NCBI RefSeq assembly: GCF_000716335.1
Contig: NZ_KL591010.1
Location: 233,105 to 297,104 of the forward strand
From: Streptomyces sp. NRRL S-118
GTDB taxonomy: Bacteria > Actinomycetota > Actinomycetes > Streptomycetales > Streptomycetaceae
DNA: 64,000 nt
Direction of reading: 5' to 3'
Each line of letters opens with the position of its first letter. The stretch's first letter is position 1. A program made the position numbers and the translations under genes. Shown one piece after another: positions 39,326 to 49,808 of the stretch. The notes beneath the pieces are model-generated. The model was not told where the DNA came from. It saw only the letters and a list, made by a program, of their open reading frames with translations, and ran no database searches.

Positions 39326-39520
39326 CTAGCCGGAGCAGGCGGTGCGCTCCGCCTCCCGCCACTCGCAGACCGGGCACAGCGTGATGCCCTTCGTCGACTC
39401 GGGGTACTCGGTCGGCTCCTGGCACAGGACGCAGGCCGCGTACGGCGGGCCTTCGGCGGGCCTGCGCCCGGGTGCGCCGGCCCCGGGCGCCGGTGTCGCG
39501 TCGCAGTACGGATCGTCCAT
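39326..39520 (-). CDS. Small zinc-ribbon-like protein
   Basis: A 64-residue protein with CVLC and CPVC pairs (AACVLCQEPTEY ... ITLCPVCEW) spaced like a zinc ribbon, and a final Cys in RTACSG. Function unknown. The start at 39520 (MDDPYC) is supported by TAGGCT on the minus strand, 7 bases upstream (plus 39528-39533), which indicates a leaderless mRNA. I recognise it as a conserved Streptomyces small protein. Confidence 0.82.
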   Translation of the reverse strand: MDDPYCDATPAPGAGAPGRRPAEGPPYAACVLCQEPTEYPESTKGITLCPVCEWREAERTACSG

Positions 39521-39534
39521 GCGTACGAGCCTAC

Positions 39535-40203
39535 TCACTCACGCCGCGCCGTGAGCCGGCAGGCGAGGGCGACCGCCACCGCCGCGACGGCCGCGGCGCA
39601 CGCGAGCGCGGTCCAGGGGTGGTCGACGCTGCCGGTGCGGGACCCCGTGACCAGCGCGGTGACGGCCTGCCGCGCGGGCGAACCGGTGGTGACCAGGGCC
39701 AGCAGCGCGGCCACGGCGATCACGGCGATGGACCACGCCCGGGCGCGCACCAGCGGCCGGGTGCCCAGGGCGCCGACGGCGGTGCCGAGCAGGACGCACA
39801 CCGCCGCGGTGACGAGTCCGGCGAGGGCGGCGGGCAGCCGGGGCACCAGAACCGCACGGCCGGCGTTCACGGGAGCGCCGAGGGCGGTCACGGCCGCGAC
39901 TGCCGCGGCTCCCAGCAGGGCCGCGCACACCGTGGCGGCCCCGATCGCGGCCAGGTGGCCCCGCTCCCGGCCGGCCGCCGCGGCCGTGACGTGGCGCGCG
40001 GCCGGGGGCTCCTGGTTCAGGCAGACGCGCACCAGCCAGGCGGTCGCCGGCAGCAGGCCCGCGGCCGTCCAGCCGAGGGCGCCGAGGACGGGCTCGCCGG
40101 AGCGCACGCCGATGCCGAGGAACACCACGTACAGCAGGACCGGGGGCAGCCAGCGCTGCGAGCGCAGCAGCAGGGCGGTGTGGTAGCGCAGGAGGGCGGT
40201 CAT
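39535..40203 (-). CDS. ABC transporter membrane protein, export-type
   Basis: A 222-residue integral membrane protein with about six hydrophobic segments, for example LPPVLLYVVFLGIGV, TVCAALLGAAAVAAV, GLVTAAVCVLLGTAVGAL and SIAVIAVAALLALV. Its ATG overlaps the stop of the upstream ATPase gene by 4 bases (ATGA). Together they form a small exporter of unknown substrate. No characteristic family name is evident beyond this context. Confidence 0.78.
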   Translation of the reverse strand: MTALLRYHTALLLRSQRWLPPVLLYVVFLGIGVRSGEPVLGALGWTAAGLLPATAWLVRVCLNQEPPAARHVTAAAAGRERGHLAAIGAATVCAALLGAAAVAAVTALGAPVNAGRAVLVPRLPAALAGLVTAAVCVLLGTAVGALGTRPLVRARAWSIAVIAVAALLALVTTGSPARQAVTALVTGSRTGSVDHPWTALACAAAVAAVAVALACRLTARRE

Positions 40204-41084: not shown

Positions 41085-41758
41085 CTCTGCGCGCCCTTCT
41101 GAGCGGTGAGCTCGCTCGGCCGGACGATCACGAATCCCTCGCCCTGGAGCATCAGCTGCACCGCCTCGCCCGAACCGCCGCGGAGCATCGACCCGAGGGA
41201 CTGCGAGCGGTGCAGCGAGGTGCTGAGGGCGGCGCTCCAGCCGACGACCGCGTCGGTGTCCACGTACACGGGCTGGTGCGTGGTGACGGGGATGACGACG
41301 GGGTTGCCCTCGCATATCACGGCGAGCTTGCCGTGCCCGCTGAAGACGCTGTTGAAGAGACCGCCGCCGGCCATGCCGGCCCCCTTCACGGTCGTGATCT
41401 CGTACGCGAGCGTCGCGTCGAAGCACAGCACGTTGCGGCCGTTGACGGTGAGCGCGTCCCCCGGCTCCAGGTCGACGATGAAGCAGTTCTGCGCCTCGTG
41501 CGCGAACCACGCCTCGCCCTGGCCGCGCACGGCCATCAGCGGCAGACCCTCGCCGGTGACGGCCCGTTTGAGCATGCCGCCCAGGCCCTGCCCCTTGCGC
41601 TCGAACCGCAGGTTGCCGCGGAAGGCGATCATCGAGCCCTGACGGGCGTGCATCTCGCCGTTGACCGCGTACTTGACCGACTTGGCGTTCTGCAGCGTCA
41701 TGCCGGGCACCGTCGCCTGCTGTGCCATGTTCCCGGAGGCGAAAAGATCGCTCTTCAT
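41081..41758 (-). CDS. AIM24 family protein
   Basis: A 225-residue protein of the AIM24 (TRAP-like) family, a beta-rich fold named for a yeast mitochondrial protein. Recognisable parts are VNGEMHARQGSMIAFRGNLRF, the Gly-rich MLKRAVTGEGLPLM and FIVDLEPGDALTVNGRNVL. Function in bacteria is not established. It heads a three-gene operon with the ABC pair. The -10 CAGGAT is 6 bases before the ATG at 41758, close to a leaderless arrangement. Confidence 0.88.
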   Translation of the reverse strand: MKSDLFASGNMAQQATVPGMTLQNAKSVKYAVNGEMHARQGSMIAFRGNLRFERKGQGLGGMLKRAVTGEGLPLMAVRGQGEAWFAHEAQNCFIVDLEPGDALTVNGRNVLCFDATLAYEITTVKGAGMAGGGLFNSVFSGHGKLAVICEGNPVVIPVTTHQPVYVDTDAVVGWSAALSTSLHRSQSLGSMLRGGSGEAVQLMLQGEGFVIVRPSELTAQKGAQS

Positions 41759-41828
41759 ACGGGCATCCTGTCCCGGAACGCCCCCTTCCGCCAAGAAGGG
41801 CTTCCGTGCGGGCTGGCAGACTGTCCTG

Positions 41829-42497
41829 GTGAGCAGCCTTGACGCCCCCCAGTTCGTCCTCCCCCTCGTCGTACGCGTCGAGCGCGCCGAACCCCCGGCC
41901 CGTACCGACGCGCTGGAGACCGCCGCGCGCGCCGTGCTGGTGATGCTCACCGACGACCGGTCGACCGGCGACGGGGAGTGGGCGCAGGCCGTGCGCGACT
42001 GGCAGGACGCCCGGATCCGCAAGGTGGTGCGGCGTGCGCGCGGCGCGGAGTGGCGGCGGGCCGCGGAGCTGCCCGGCATCACGGTCACCGGTGGCACCGC
42101 GGAGGTACGGGTCTTCCCGCCGGTACCGCTGGACGGCTGGCCCAAGGAGCTCGCCAAGCTCCAGGTCTCCGGCACGGAGCTGGAGGACACCGGCGAGGTC
42201 CCCGACACCCGGCCCGGGCAGGCCCTGCTGTGGCTCAACCCGGATCTGCACATGTCCACCGGCAAGGAGATGGCGCAGGTCGGGCACGGTGCGCAGCTGC
42301 TGTGGTGGGCGATGACGGACGAGGACCGCGCGGCCTGGCGGGAGGCCGGATTCCCGCTCGCCGTGCGCACCGCCCACCCCGACCGGTGGGCCGAACTCAC
42401 CGCGAGCGGGCTGCCGGTGGTGCGGGACGCGGGCTTCACGGAGATCGCCCCCGGCTCCTGCACGGTCGTCTCCGACTTTCCCGTACAGGTGAACTGA
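41829..42497 (+). CDS. Peptidyl-tRNA hydrolase, Pth2 family
   Basis: A 222-residue Pth2-type peptidyl-tRNA hydrolase, which recycles tRNA from stalled translation. The N-terminal part begins FVLPLVVRVERAEPP. The Pth2 active region is LNPDLHMSTGKEMAQVGHGAQLLWW, where the family normally has KMSxGKxAAQ. The C-terminal stretch GFTEIAPGSCTVV matches the Pth2 end. A CAGACT box stands 6 bases before the GTG, suggesting a leaderless start. It is divergent from the AIM24 operon. Confidence 0.87.
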   Translation: MSSLDAPQFVLPLVVRVERAEPPARTDALETAARAVLVMLTDDRSTGDGEWAQAVRDWQDARIRKVVRRARGAEWRRAAELPGITVTGGTAEVRVFPPVPLDGWPKELAKLQVSGTELEDTGEVPDTRPGQALLWLNPDLHMSTGKEMAQVGHGAQLLWWAMTDEDRAAWREAGFPLAVRTAHPDRWAELTASGLPVVRDAGFTEIAPGSCTVVSDFPVQVN

Positions 42498-42557: not shown

Positions 42558-43325
42558 TTGTTGTTGCGACGCATCAACGGCACGGCACTCATCATCGCGG
42601 CGCTGGTCGCCACGGTCGGCGCACTGGCGTTCCCGGTCTGGTCGTACGCCGACCGCTCCGGCACCGGCCAGGCCAACCTCAACGCGTCGACGGTGGCCAC
42701 GCAGTGGGGCCCGCTGTCGGCCACGGACCGCGACTTCCTGGTGAAGGTGCGGCTGGCGGGCCTGTGGGAGCTGCCGGCCGGCCAGCAGGCGATCGAGCGG
42801 GCGCCGAGCCAGGCCATCAAGGACGCGGGCGACCACCTCGTGGTCGGCCACACCGACCTGGACCAGCGGGCCCGGGACGTGGCCGCGAAGCTGGGCGTGG
42901 AGCTGCCGAACCAGCCGTCGGAGCAGCAGCAGGGCTGGCTGCGGGAGCTGTCCGCGGCGAGCGGCGAGGAGTACGAGCGGAAGTTCGCCAACCTGCTGCG
43001 CAACGCGCACGGCAAGGTCTTCGCACTCGTCGCCCAGGTGCGGCACACCACCCGCAACACGCTGATACGCCAGCTGGCGACCGACGCCAACCAGACGGTG
43101 CTGGACCACATCACGATGCTGGAGCAGACCGGCAAGGTGGACTTCGACGCCATCGCCAACGAGGCGGCGGGGCAGGCGACCGCCAGCCCGTCCGGCCCGC
43201 CGGCGCCCAACGGCAACCTGCCGCCCGCGCCGTCGCCCGCCGTGCCGTCCGGCGACCAGCAGTTCACGTCCCGGCCCTCGACGCAGCCGGGACCGCCGAC
43301 GGCGATCAACACCAACCGCCCGTGA
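42558..43325 (+). CDS. DUF4142 domain-containing exported protein
   Basis: A 255-residue protein with an N-terminal signal or anchor (LLRRINGTALIIAALVATVGALAFPVWSYA). DUF4142 follows, a helical ferritin-like or haemerythrin-like domain: LSATDRDFLVKVRLAGLWEL, QAIERAPSQAIKDAGDHLVV and HITMLEQTG. A Pro-rich low-complexity tail closes it. The TTG start at 42558 has GGGAGG 7 bases before it. Function unknown; it directly precedes the DUF692 pair but a hairpin separates them. Confidence 0.85.
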   Translation: MLLRRINGTALIIAALVATVGALAFPVWSYADRSGTGQANLNASTVATQWGPLSATDRDFLVKVRLAGLWELPAGQQAIERAPSQAIKDAGDHLVVGHTDLDQRARDVAAKLGVELPNQPSEQQQGWLRELSAASGEEYERKFANLLRNAHGKVFALVAQVRHTTRNTLIRQLATDANQTVLDHITMLEQTGKVDFDAIANEAAGQATASPSGPPAPNGNLPPAPSPAVPSGDQQFTSRPSTQPGPPTAINTNRP

Positions 43326-43432: not shown

Positions 43433-44848
43433 ATGGGGGACACGCGGCAACTCGGCATGGGCATCGGCTGGCGTCCGGAGATCGCGGACGCGGTGGAGGG
43501 GCTGCCCGGTGTGGACTGGGTGGAGGTGGTCGCGGAGAACCTCTGCGCCGGCCACCTCCCCGACTCCCTGCTGCGGCTGCGCGAGCGGGGCGTCACCGTG
43601 GTGCCGCACGGCGTGTCGCTCGGCCTGGGCGGCGCGGACCGGCCGGACGCGGGGCGGCTGGCGGATCTGGCCGCCAAGGCGACGGCGCTCGGCGCGCCGC
43701 TGGTCACCGAGCACATCGCCTTCGTACGGGCCGCGGGCCCGGCCGGGGCGCTGGAGGCCGGGCACCTGCTGCCGGTGCAGCGCACCTGGGACGCGCTGGA
43801 GGTGCTGTGCGAGAACGTGCGCATCGCGCAGGACGCGCTGCCGGTGCCGCTGGCCCTGGAGAACATAGCGGCGCTGATCTCCTGGCCGGGCGAGGAGCTG
43901 ACGGAGGGGCAGTTCCTCGCGGAGCTCGTCGAGCGCACCGGGGTGCGGCTGCTGATCGACGTGGCCAACCTGCACACCAACCACGTCAACCGCGGCGAGG
44001 ACCCGTCGAAGGCGCTGGACGAACTGCCGGTCGAGGCCATCGCGTACGTCCACGTGGCGGGCGGCGTCGAGCGGGACGGCGTCTGGCACGACACCCACGC
44101 GCACCCCGTGCCGCGCCCGGTCCTCGACATCCTCGCCGACCTGTCGTCCCGCGTCGCGCCGCCGGGTGTCCTGCTGGAGCGGGACGACGACTTCCCCCCG
44201 GCACCGGCCCTGGCCGCGGAGCTGACGGCGATCCGCGACACGCTCAGGCGGTCGGCACCGGTGCGCCTCGGGTCCGTGAGGTCCGCGGGGGCCGCGCCGG
44301 TGGCCGTCCCGGCTGGGGCCGCGGCGCCGGCCACGTGCGGGGGGCCGGCCGGCCCGGCCGGCGCGACGACCGCTGTGCGCGCGGAGGCCGCGCCCGCCGC
44401 GGCGGGGCCGGGACCGGTCCGCGCCGCGGACGAGGAGGCACGGCAGCGGGTGTGGGTGGCGCAGGCAGCGCTGCTGTCCGCGCTCGTCGCCGGGGCCCCG
44501 GTGCCCGAGGGGTTCGACCGCGCGCGGGTACGGGTGCAGAGCCGGGCGCTGGCCGCCAAGCGCGCCGGGGTGGTGGCCAGGATCGCGCCGGAGCTCCCGC
44601 GGATCCTCGGGGGCGGGTACCGCGCCGCGTTCCTGGCGTACGCCATGGCCCGGCCCATGCGGGACGGCTACCGGCGCGACGCGCTCGACTTCGCCGAGCA
44701 CCTACTCGTGGCCGGGGAGCCCGCGGATCCGGGCGCGCGGCGCAGGCTGGCCCGATGGTGGGAGGAGCGCGCCGGGGAACGGCCGCCCGGCCCGGTCGCA
44801 CGGCTCCTGCACGCCGTCCGCACCGCGCTGCGGGGGGTGAAGCCGTGA
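43433..44848 (+). CDS. DUF692 (MNIO superfamily) protein with C-terminal partner domain
   Basis: A 471-residue protein. Residues 1-260 are a DUF692 TIM barrel of the multinuclear non-haem iron oxidase family. Candidate iron ligands are all present: His59 (VPHGVS), His94 (TEHIAF), Glu143 (LEN), Asp176/His181/His184 (DVANLHTNH), His207 (YVHVAG), Asp220/His222 (DTHAH) and Glu249 (ERDDDFP). A low-complexity Ala/Pro linker (about 275-325) leads to a helical C-terminal domain ([20 protein letters not shown] ... LDFAEHLL), possibly a substrate-recognition partner fused in cis. It overlaps the next gene as GTGA. Relatives such as MbnB, TglH and ChrH modify Cys in peptides. Ribosome site GGAGGAGGGG precedes the ATG. 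Confidence 0.9.
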
Positions 44849-45837
44849 ACGTCCTCGCCGTCCTGATCGACCTCGGTGTCGTCGTCTCGTCCGTGGTGCT
44901 CGTCTGCGGGATCGCCGCCTCCCGGCGCCGCGGCCCGGGCGGGTCCGTCCACGACCGGACGGAGGCCGCCTTCCTGAACGGCGGCCCCGGCCTCGTCGTG
45001 GACGCGGCGATCACCGCCCTGCACGCCGACGGGCGCCTCGTCGTCGCCGGTCCCGGGATCGTCGCCGTACCGCGGCCCGTCGGGTACGACCCCGTCGAGC
45101 GTGCCGTGATCGCGGAGCACGCCGCCGCCCCCAGCGGCGCCCTGCACCGGCTGCGGCTCGCCGTGATGCGCCACCCCGCCGTGCAGGAGGTCGGCGACGG
45201 CCTCGCGGCACGGGGCCTGATCACACCGGCCGGCGCCGGGCGCAGGTGGCGCCGCTGGGGCGTCGCCCAGGGGATCGTGTGCCTGCTGCTGCTCTTCGCC
45301 TCGGTACCGCTGACCGTGGTGGAGCTGACGCGGTACGGAGCGGCCGACTGGCCCTTCCCGTTCATCGGCAAGGTCGGCCCGGTCCTGCTGGTCGGCGGGG
45401 TCGTCGCCCTCGTGTGCGCGGGCACCGCGGGGGCCCGGCTGACCCGGGCGGGCCGCGACGCGCTCGCGGCGTACCGCTGGTCCCGCACCCGTCCCGACGA
45501 CCCCGCCGAACTGGTGGCGGTGCACGGGCTGCGGGCGCTGCCCGACCGGGCCCTGTGGGAGCAGCTGACCACCGCGGCCGGGAGGAACCGCGGCGGCACA
45601 CCGGCGTCCGATGGGGCCGCGCCCGTGGTGTGGTGCGCCGGCGCGGACCCGGGCGGCTCCGGATCCGGCTGCGGCGGCGGCTCCTGCGGGGGCGGGGCGG
45701 GCTGCGGAGGCGGCGGCGGTTCCTGCGGCAGCTCCGGCGGAGGGTCGAGCTGCGCGGGCAGCAGCAGCTCCGGTTGCGGGAGCAGCAGCAGCAGCTCCAG
45801 CTGCGGCGGCGGATCGAGCTGCGGCAGCAGCTCCTAG
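44845..45837 (+). CDS. TIGR04222-type membrane protein with Cys-rich tail
   Basis: A 330-residue membrane protein. A helix at about residues 3-24 is followed by a cytoplasmic or extracellular domain ([20 protein letters not shown] ... [13 protein letters not shown]). Two more helices lie near 135-155 and 165-188. From Cys264 to the end runs a Gly/Ser/Cys tail with nine cysteines, mostly as GCGG, SCGG and SCGS motifs. TIGR04222 proteins are defined by a domain next to such low-complexity tails. The GTG start overlaps the DUF692 stop, so the two are made together. The tail is a possible DUF692 substrate (inference). Confidence 0.85.
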
Positions 45838-47647: not shown

Positions 47648-48361
47648 TCAGGCGAGCCCTGCCACCAGGTCCGCGACCGACTTGCGGCGGCCGGTGTAGA
47701 AGGGCACCTCTTCCCGTACGTGCATACGGGCCTCGGAGCCGCGCAGGTGGCGCATCAGGTCCACGATGCGGTACAGCTCGTCGGCCTCGAAGGCGAGGAT
47801 CCACTCGTAGTCGCCGAGCGAGAACGAGGCGACGGTGTTCGCGCGCACGTCCGGGAAGCCGCGGGCCATCTTGCCGTGGTCGGCGAGCATGCGCCGCCGC
47901 TCCTCGTCGGGCAGCAGGTACCAGTCGTAGGAGCGGACGAAGGGGTACACCGAGACGTAGTCGCGCGGCGTCTCGTCGGCGAGGAACGCCGGGATGTGCG
48001 ACCGGTTGAACTCGGCCGGGCGGTGCAGCGCCATGTTGGACCACACCGGCTCCAGCGCGCGGCCCAGCCGGGTGCGGCGGAAGAGGTTGTACGCCTCCTG
48101 GAGCGCGTCCGCGGTCTCGGCGTGCCACCAGATCATCAAGTCGGCGTCGGCACGCAGACCGGACACGTCGTAGGTGCCGCGGACGGTGACGTCCTTGGCG
48201 GCGAGCTGGTCGAACAGCTCCTGGACCTCGTCGGCGTAGCCGGTCCGGTCCTCGGGCAGCACGTCGCGCAGCTTGAAGACGGACCACAGGGTGTAGCGGA
48301 TGACCTCGTTGAGGTCCTTCGCCTTCTTACCGGCGTTCGGGATCTTTTCGGGCGCACTCAT
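47648..48361 (-). CDS. hemQ: Coproheme decarboxylase HemQ (chlorite dismutase family)
   Basis: A 237-residue enzyme that converts coproheme to haem b in the coproporphyrin-dependent pathway of actinobacteria. Family motifs are [13 protein letters not shown] at the N-terminus, [19 protein letters not shown] (with the catalytic Tyr) and the proximal-His region [12 protein letters not shown]. The ATG at 48361 lies 5 bases past the hemG stop; a GTG at 48382 overlapping hemG is the alternative. The pair is translationally linked. Confidence 0.93.
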
Positions 48362-48365
48362 AGGG

Positions 48366-49808
48366 CTATTCTCGCTCGTCACTCGGGGTGGCCTGCGCCA
48401 GGGTCGGCGTGGCGAGGATCTCGTCCGCCGCGCGGCGGGCGCTCGCGACGCAGGCGGGGATGCCGACGCCGTCGTACGCCGCTCCGCAGACCCGCAGGGC
48501 GGGCAGCGCCGCGACGGCGTCGCGGATGCGGGCGACCCGGGCGAGGTGCCCGACGGGGTACTGCGGCAGGCCGCCGATCCAGCGGGTGACCGCGGAGGCG
48601 ACCGGCCGGGCGGTGAGCCCGGTCGCGGCGGCGAGGTCCCGCAGGGAGACGGAGACGAGGTCGGCGTCGTCCCGTTCCAGGTGCTCCTCCTCGCCGTACC
48701 GGCCGACGGAGGTGCGCAGCAGGACGAGGTCGCCCGCGCTCTCGTCGGTCCAGCGCCACTTCTGCGAGGAGAAGGTGGAGGCCTTGATGGTGCGGCCGTC
48801 GACGGGCGGGACGAGGAAGCCCGAACCGGCGGGCAGCCCGGCCGTGTCCGTGCGCCGGAACGCGAGGGTGACCAGGGCCATGGAGGCGTACTCGACGGCG
48901 GCGAGTTCGGCCGCGGCGGCCGGGGACGCGGCCGAGAGCAGCGCGGCGGCGGACCAGGCCGGGGTGGCGAGGACGACGGCGTCGGCCTCGATGACGCGCC
49001 GGCCGGTCCGCACGTGCCAGCCGGCCGGTCCGCGGGTGAGTTCCTGGACGGGCGTGTCGGTGAGGATCTCGCCGCCGTGCGCGGTGACGGCGCCGGCGAC
49101 GGCGCCGGGCAGGGTGCCGATGCCGCCCTCGATGCCCATGAAGGCGGGGCCCGTCTGCCCGGGGGTGGCCCGCTGGACCGCGCGGACGGCCTCGGTGAGG
49201 GTGCCGTGGGCGCGGGCGGCCTCGAACAGCTTCGGTACGGCGGCCCGCATCGAGATCCGGTAGGCGTCGCCCGCGTAGACGCCGCCGAGGAGGGGCTCGA
49301 CGAGCCGGTCGACGACCTCGCGGCCGAGGCGTTCGGCGACGTACGCGCCGACGGCGACGTCCTCCCCGAGGGCTTCGGGACGGGCGGGCGGCAGGTCGCG
49401 CTCGTGGGCGATGCGGGCGAGGCCCTCGGCGGAGAGCAGTCCGGAGAGGGCGGCGGCGTCGCCGGGGACGCCCATGACGTGGCCCTTGGGCATGGGCCGC
49501 AGGGCGTCGCGGGTCCACACGGACGCGGTGGTGGTGGCGGGAGGCTGGAGGCGGTCGCCGAGACCGACGGCCCGGGCGAGGTCGACCGCCTCGGGGCGGC
49601 GGGCGAGCACCGACTCGGCGCCGAGGTCGACGGGGGCGCCGGCGATCTCGCCCGCGTGGAGCTTGCCGCCGAGGCGGCCGGTGGCCTCCAGCAGGGTCAC
49701 GCGCCGCCCGGCGGTGGCGAGCCGGTGGGCGGCGGCGAGACCGGCGATGCCGCCGCCGATGACGACGACGTGGCCGCCCCGCGTGCCCTGGAGTGTGTCC
49801 GCGTTCAT
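48366..49808 (-). CDS. hemG: Protoporphyrinogen/coproporphyrinogen oxidase
   Basis: A 480-residue flavoprotein that oxidises coproporphyrinogen III in actinobacteria (HemY/CgoX type). The dinucleotide fold [17 protein letters not shown] lies near residues 14-30, followed by the typical [14 protein letters not shown]. The C-terminal FAD part has [24 protein letters not shown]. The symbol hemG is used here loosely; hemY or cgoX would also fit. It precedes hemQ, which acts two steps later. Confidence 0.94.

Follow-up and report, generated by a model that had tools for sequence, protein, structure and literature searches.

MNIO enzymes are known mainly for their action on small peptides. In the available part of their paper, Antoine et al. 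2025 (PMC12452194) describe TIGR04222 proteins with cysteine-rich C-terminal tails that often adjoin MNIO genes, and propose subsets of these proteins as MNIO substrates. According to the same text, PME-type 2 partners occur in at least 10% of the TIGR04222 clusters, and many clusters with an MNIO and a TIGR04222 gene seem to be without a partner gene. Here we examine an MNIO-TIGR04222 gene pair of Streptomyces sp. NRRL S-118, located on a stretch of 64,000 nucleotides (contig NZ_KL591010.1, assembly GCF_000716335.1, positions 233,105 to 297,104 of the forward strand) that we refer to as the window. Since the association, the cysteine tails and the substrate idea are already contained in PMC12452194, we do not claim the finding itself as new. 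Our additions are a probable partner domain fused to the MNIO or encoded next to it, and a tail that is predicted to face inward; the main complication is a group of Streptomyces loci whose TIGR04222 protein is devoid of a cysteine tail. In the open PubMed Central texts covered by our searches, we saw neither this fused partner domain mentioned nor a tail facing the cytoplasm. The unit comprises the following features (window positions):

43433-44848, plus strand: MNIO (DUF692) open reading frame (ORF), 471 aa, complete gene
43433-44242, plus strand: catalytic part of the MNIO (DUF692, PF05114), aa 1-270, placed by Pfam and NCBIfam scores and by the ligand alignment
44417-44845, plus strand: fused C-terminal helical domain of the MNIO, aa 329-471 (PF26136, SCO6045-like C-terminal domain), a probable partner-protein domain
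44845-44848, plus strand: GTGA overlap between the MNIO stop and the TIGR04222 start, read from the sequence
44845-45837, plus strand: TIGR04222 protein gene, 330 aa, GTG start
44845-45633, plus strand: TIGR04222 membrane domain and linker, aa 1-263, with an N-terminal transmembrane (TM) helix, a soluble domain and a TM hairpin
45634-45834, plus strand: low-complexity Gly/Ser-rich tail, aa 264-330, with nine Cys, the first directly after a conserved Trp

The two-gene unit is real and under selection, and it can be explained in part. A first-pass annotation, made from the letters and their translations, had reported the MNIO gene, its 4-base overlap with the TIGR04222 gene and the nine cysteines in the final 67 residues, and all of this was confirmed. 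Both proteins pass the thresholds of their families. The MNIO scores 261.8 bits against Pfam PF05114 (cut-off 25, aa 8-270), and its nearest NCBIfam model is BufB with 179.8 bits, which is below the equivalog cut-off of 310. The TIGR04222 protein reaches 139.4 bits with the NCBIfam model (cut-off 43, aa 12-233). Its AlphaFold2 model (pLDDT 78.5) has helices at residues 2-26, 133-164 and 173-195, among others, and a Foldseek search with this fold gave nothing at E <= 0.001 (best E 0.78).

The annotation had also listed ten candidate iron ligands. Eight of them are invariant or nearly so: 72 of 73 aligned MNIO domains have His at positions 59 and 94 (the remaining one has a gap), and all 73 retain E143, D176, H207, D220, H222 and E249. 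Positions 181 and 184 are occupied by His in just 51 and 23 of the 73 domains, and H181 and H184 were therefore dropped from the universal ligand set.

We surveyed 296 genomes of the class, in which TIGR04222 was found over the cut-off in 84 and MNIO in 76. The scripted searches used custom profiles with 29 strong matches each. At most nine TIGR04222 candidates were scored per genome, so that all counts are lower bounds. We fetched the regions that exceeded the cut-off and, in addition, some with an MNIO only, which left out nearly all TIGR04222 matches below the cut-off. Tails with three or more [GSA]C[GSA] sites were counted as Cys tails, and a TIGR04222 gene was counted as linked if an MNIO lay on the same strand within the fetched stretch of a few kb. 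The 105 TIGR04222 proteins scored in this way do not include the window-genome paralogue L004, and L132 and L140 gave no match to the custom profile.

Cys-tailed TIGR04222 proteins closely track MNIO in this set. Among all 105 proteins, 43 Cys-tailed and 18 Cys-poor ones were linked to an MNIO, as against 9 Cys-tailed and 35 Cys-poor ones that were not. The association is seen outside Streptomyces, where 33 of 34 linked but only 7 of 33 unlinked proteins were Cys-tailed (Fisher p = 3.7e-11, a value that ignores relatedness). At the level of genomes, 51 of 52 Cys tails were found together with an MNIO, and the last one (L115) belongs to a genome where part of an MNIO is seen at the edge of a contig. 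The co-occurrence proposed as a check of the first-pass annotation thus holds outside Streptomyces; within this genus, linked (10 Cys-tailed, 17 not) and unlinked proteins (2 and 9) did not differ in this respect (p = 0.44). The sole non-Streptomyces MNIO-linked TIGR04222 protein of the survey with a Cys-free tail is L136 (genome G160).

For Streptomyces we also used a list of 80 loci, namely the best 80 matches to an alignment headed by the window MNIO; all are from this genus, and a few strains are shared with the survey. A linked Cys-tailed TIGR04222 gene is present in 46 of these best 80 loci, and in 44 of the 46 the two genes overlap by 4 bases (37 GTGA, 7 ATGA). The junction of membrane part and tail is likewise conserved, with W263-C264 invariant across 31 aligned proteins, the window protein among them. 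In the window genome (7.9 Mb) there is a single MNIO, alongside four TIGR04222 matches. Two of the additional TIGR04222 proteins have a Gly/Ser-rich tail with cysteines and no adjoining MNIO, one with five Cys (L181, 5369-6505) and one with three (L103, 298-1150, minus strand); the latter gene lies directly 3' of a gene that looks protein-kinase-like judging from its sequence alone. These two tails could be MNIO substrates in trans. The third additional protein is without a Cys tail.

The C-terminal part of the MNIO is homologous to a stand-alone gene that lies directly 3' of the MNIO at other loci. In a census of 54 TIGR04222-linked MNIOs, the domain was fused in 31, encoded by the next gene in 21 and not found in 2; 52 of the 54 thus have it in their own chain or right beside them. 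Of 19 other MNIOs, 6 have the domain fused and 9 as a separate protein, and in 4 it was not found. It is fused in 78 of the best 80 listed Streptomyces loci, the remaining two being truncated by contig ends. The label PF26136 was taken from precomputed labels on relatives of the domain, since a search of MNIO residues 301-471 against the local Pfam library gave no family at E <= 1, and hence no DUF2063 signature. A structural model of the same residues (AlphaFold2, pLDDT 80, pTM 0.59) had TglI and MbnC as its top matches, with weak scores. Searching PDB sequences with the domain profile gave two rows, the better of which (E 0.013) is a short match to FixJ and not a partner protein. An artificial HvfB-HvfC fusion with the same order of parts is active, according to the available text of PMC13419390.

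Taken together, the fused or adjacent homologues and the weak resemblance to TglI and MbnC suggest that the extra domain is probably the MNIO's own partner protein, built into the enzyme, which supports the earlier proposal of a fused domain that guides the substrate. If so, the printed puzzle of TIGR04222-MNIO clusters without partner would be answered for the actinobacteria sampled, and the enzyme would be available as one chain that is easy to express and assay.

We infer the partner action of the extra domain, the modification of the tail, its chemistry and its physiological role as parts of one scheme, which we judge somewhat better than an even bet. The MNIO, carrying the partner domain at its own C-terminus, would act on a TIGR04222 protein made through translational coupling and held in the membrane by three helices, with the Cys-rich Gly/Ser tail directed toward the cytoplasm. 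The partner domain would help to place the tail for the iron centre, which would oxidise some of the cysteines, at W-C and S-C-G sites; thiooxazole-like groups or relatives of these would be the most likely products. The result would be a self-contained modification unit and a membrane-tethered, inward-facing device for metal binding or thiol/redox chemistry. Streptomyces MNIOs without a Cys-tailed TIGR04222 neighbour would require another substrate.

These Streptomyces loci are the strongest argument against such a scheme. In this genus the Cys-tailed gene is often replaced or followed by a Cys-less TIGR04222 paralogue ending in an EPDLRAAF-like sequence, which we call T0. The survey includes 23 Streptomyces genomes in which an MNIO has a TIGR04222 neighbour; in 13 of them this neighbour is T0 alone, and the TIGR04222 matches examined in these 13 genomes include no Cys tail. 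Among the best 80 listed loci, 52 have a T0 within 4 kb, 30 of them together with a linked Cys tail. The enzymes do not look degraded where the tail is missing. All 16 MNIOs from T0-only or TIGR04222-free loci have retained their ligands, and the median pairwise dN/dS (ratio of non-synonymous to synonymous substitution rates) of the catalytic domain is 0.117 at 27 loci without a linked Cys tail, compared to 0.163 at 46 loci with one; for the C-terminal part the values are 0.399 and 0.343. The MNIO is therefore under purifying selection also at loci without a linked Cys tail. In addition, the presence of a linked Cys tail switches six times on the MNIO tree, and at least four of these changes are forced by well-supported branches.

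A ligand-intact MNIO beside a Cys-less TIGR04222 protein means that the tail as substrate, as the first-pass annotation had it, cannot cover the whole function; the part of this claim that stands is that Cys tails track MNIO. The MNIO probably has a substrate besides the linked tail, and this second substrate must be sought. At 16 Streptomyces loci (13 T0-only and 3 TIGR04222-free), the ORFs around the MNIO (up to 6 kb away, 20-260 aa long, three or more Cys) were clustered in search of a Cys-rich precursor; the 14 largest clusters were inspected, and no precursor was found. One of the 14 clusters, 1.4-3.7 kb downstream, was coding-like in base composition and was taken as antisense to a hemQ-like gene.

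The same observations are what recommends the alternative that survives best, namely that the tail is not the substrate, or not the main one, that the MNIO acts on an unlinked protein, and that the cysteines of the tail stay unmodified, acting as thiols or metal ligands of a protein that happens to be encoded at the same locus. We regard this as unlikely, although it has to be taken seriously. The dependence runs in one direction, as no Cys tail of the survey was found in an MNIO-free genome, and a substrate explains this better than a bystander does. The 4-base overlap in nearly all loci with a linked Cys tail also argues against it.

According to a published line of thought, the modified tail would be located outside the membrane and bind copper there in the manner of the bufferins. 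This would be in line with the extra-cytoplasmic topology predicted in PMC12452194 (likely periplasmic, in the available text) and with a bufferin maturase being the closest NCBIfam model of the enzyme. The charge distribution of the TIGR04222 proteins contradicts this prediction, since net charge is positive at both flanks of the TM hairpin, and thus on the tail side, and low in the hairpin loop. A first test, based on K+R counts, was applied to 71 proteins, 45 of which had three clear TM helices; a cytoplasmic tail was favoured in 42 of the 45, Cys-tailed or not. For the test by net charge, a hairpin was detected in 80 of 93 Cys-tailed proteins examined, and the flanks exceeded the loop in 77 of them. 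The subsets gave 10/10 (12 examined), 21/24 (35 examined) and 46/46 (46 examined), and overlap by a few species. As judged by this positive-inside test, which is uncalibrated on proteins of known topology, the Cys tail probably faces the cytoplasm and stays in the cell, where a cytosolic enzyme could reach it at any time. We therefore consider an outside location improbable.

Finally, cysteine is enriched in the tails beyond chance or the drift of Gly/Ser-rich sequence. In the last 55 residues of the 46 listed Streptomyces Cys tails, Cys accounts for 12.3%, and no other residue apart from Gly and Ser exceeds 1.2%. The residue before Cys is Ser in 240, Gly in 82 and Trp in 46 cases, and the residue after it Gly in 230, Ser in 108 and Ala in 43; Ser thus precedes Cys about three times as often as Gly, although the two are about equally common. 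In the class survey, 48 of 51 Gly/Ser-rich tails (at least 30 aa, without X) from MNIO genomes had three or more Cys, compared to 0 of 6 from MNIO-free genomes, a small sample. A functionless by-product of repeat slippage, as could be suspected from the low complexity of the tail and from the single change that turns a GGC or AGC codon into TGC, is hard to reconcile with these numbers and very improbable.

We thus favor oxidation of cysteines in a cytosolic, membrane-tethered tail by an MNIO with a built-in partner. In its most specific form, this would make a full-size integral membrane protein the product of an MNIO, with several oxidised Cys-derived groups on a cytoplasmic tail, a naturally fused partner, and a function as membrane-tethered metal or peroxide-responsive sink. 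We put forward this version tentatively, as it is more likely to need revision than to hold in full. If true, a modified membrane-protein tail that never leaves the cytoplasm would extend the reach of MNIO enzymes.

The neighboring genes give few hints of a role. Two genes upstream of the MNIO deserve mention:

42558-43325, plus strand: DUF4142 protein gene (PF13628, 75.1 bits; start codon unsettled)
41661-42497, plus strand: gene for a PTH2-like protein of the peptidyl-tRNA hydrolase family (PF01981, 35.9 bits; start codon unsettled)

A DUF4142 relative was found by single-sequence search in 50 of the best 80 listed loci, either upstream of the MNIO or between MNIO and T0, and may or may not be part of the unit. 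At T0 loci such as L065, L066, L075, L084 and L087, T0 follows the MNIO, often after a DUF4142 gene, and most of 18 aligned T0 copies have a C-x-x-x-C pair at the end of the first TM helix. Just downstream of the unit, on the opposite strand (47648-49808), lie what we take to be hemQ- and hemY-like genes of heme biosynthesis; among 21 Streptomyces gene sets, 12 have a relative of the first and 15 one of the second near the MNIO. A small six-Cys protein, zinc-ribbon-like by eye (39326-39538, minus strand), belongs to a cluster found near the MNIO in 9 of the 21. The PTH2-like gene is perhaps the neighbor "adjamnio-II", for which Table 2 of PMC12452194 gives the order Adjamnio-II (peptidyl-tRNA hydrolase, there PF01195), MNIO, TIGR04222; the two were matched by description only.

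At 33 loci (32 from outside Streptomyces and L083), which genes recur apart from TIGR04222, MNIO and partner depends on the family. Most are housekeeping-like by eye (pheT, argC, argJ, PEP carboxykinase, undecaprenyl diphosphate synthase), one family present at 6 of the 33 loci could not be assigned a name by eye, and no pathway signal was indicated by the neighbors of these loci. As it lies amid different genes in different families, the module looks like a stand-alone unit. In Streptomyces coelicolor, H2O2 induces SCO6045 3.01-fold in the wild type, alongside cysteine-biosynthesis genes, and zero up-regulated genes are recorded for a mutant lacking HbpS-SenS-SenR (available text of PMC4991794). 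From the name of the domain family, we infer that SCO6045 is a fused MNIO. A role in thiol, peroxide or metal metabolism would be our guess.

Among the known systems, TglH-TglI and MbnB-MbnC resemble the window unit in the partners to which its C-terminal domain model is, weakly, nearest. Unlike in the window unit, their partners are separate proteins and their substrates are short peptides. The bufferin and oxazolin systems (BufB-BufC, HvfB-HvfC) also combine an MNIO with a helical partner and Cys-rich substrates, and BufB is the nearest model of the window enzyme. However, their precursors carry Sec signal peptides and their partners DUF2063, as described in the accessible part of PMC12452194, whereas the window unit has an integral membrane protein and a fused extra domain without DUF2063 signature. 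The TIGR04222 protein begins with a TM helix and its charge pattern would keep the tail inside, in contrast to the exported bufferin precursor. MovX is likewise an MNIO with an additional C-terminal domain that may act as partner (PMC12452194 and PMC13419390, both in part), but this is a winged-helix/RRE domain, whereas that of the window enzyme is helical and closest to TglI and MbnC. The engineered HvfBC fusion shares with the window enzyme the arrangement of MNIO and partner in a single chain (PMC13419390, same text). The clusters of Antoine et al. contain the same two families, with Cys-rich Gly/Ser tails and the same substrate idea; they differ in that a partner is given for at least 10% of them in the available text of PMC12452194, while an extra domain is fused or adjacent to nearly every TIGR04222-linked MNIO of our census.
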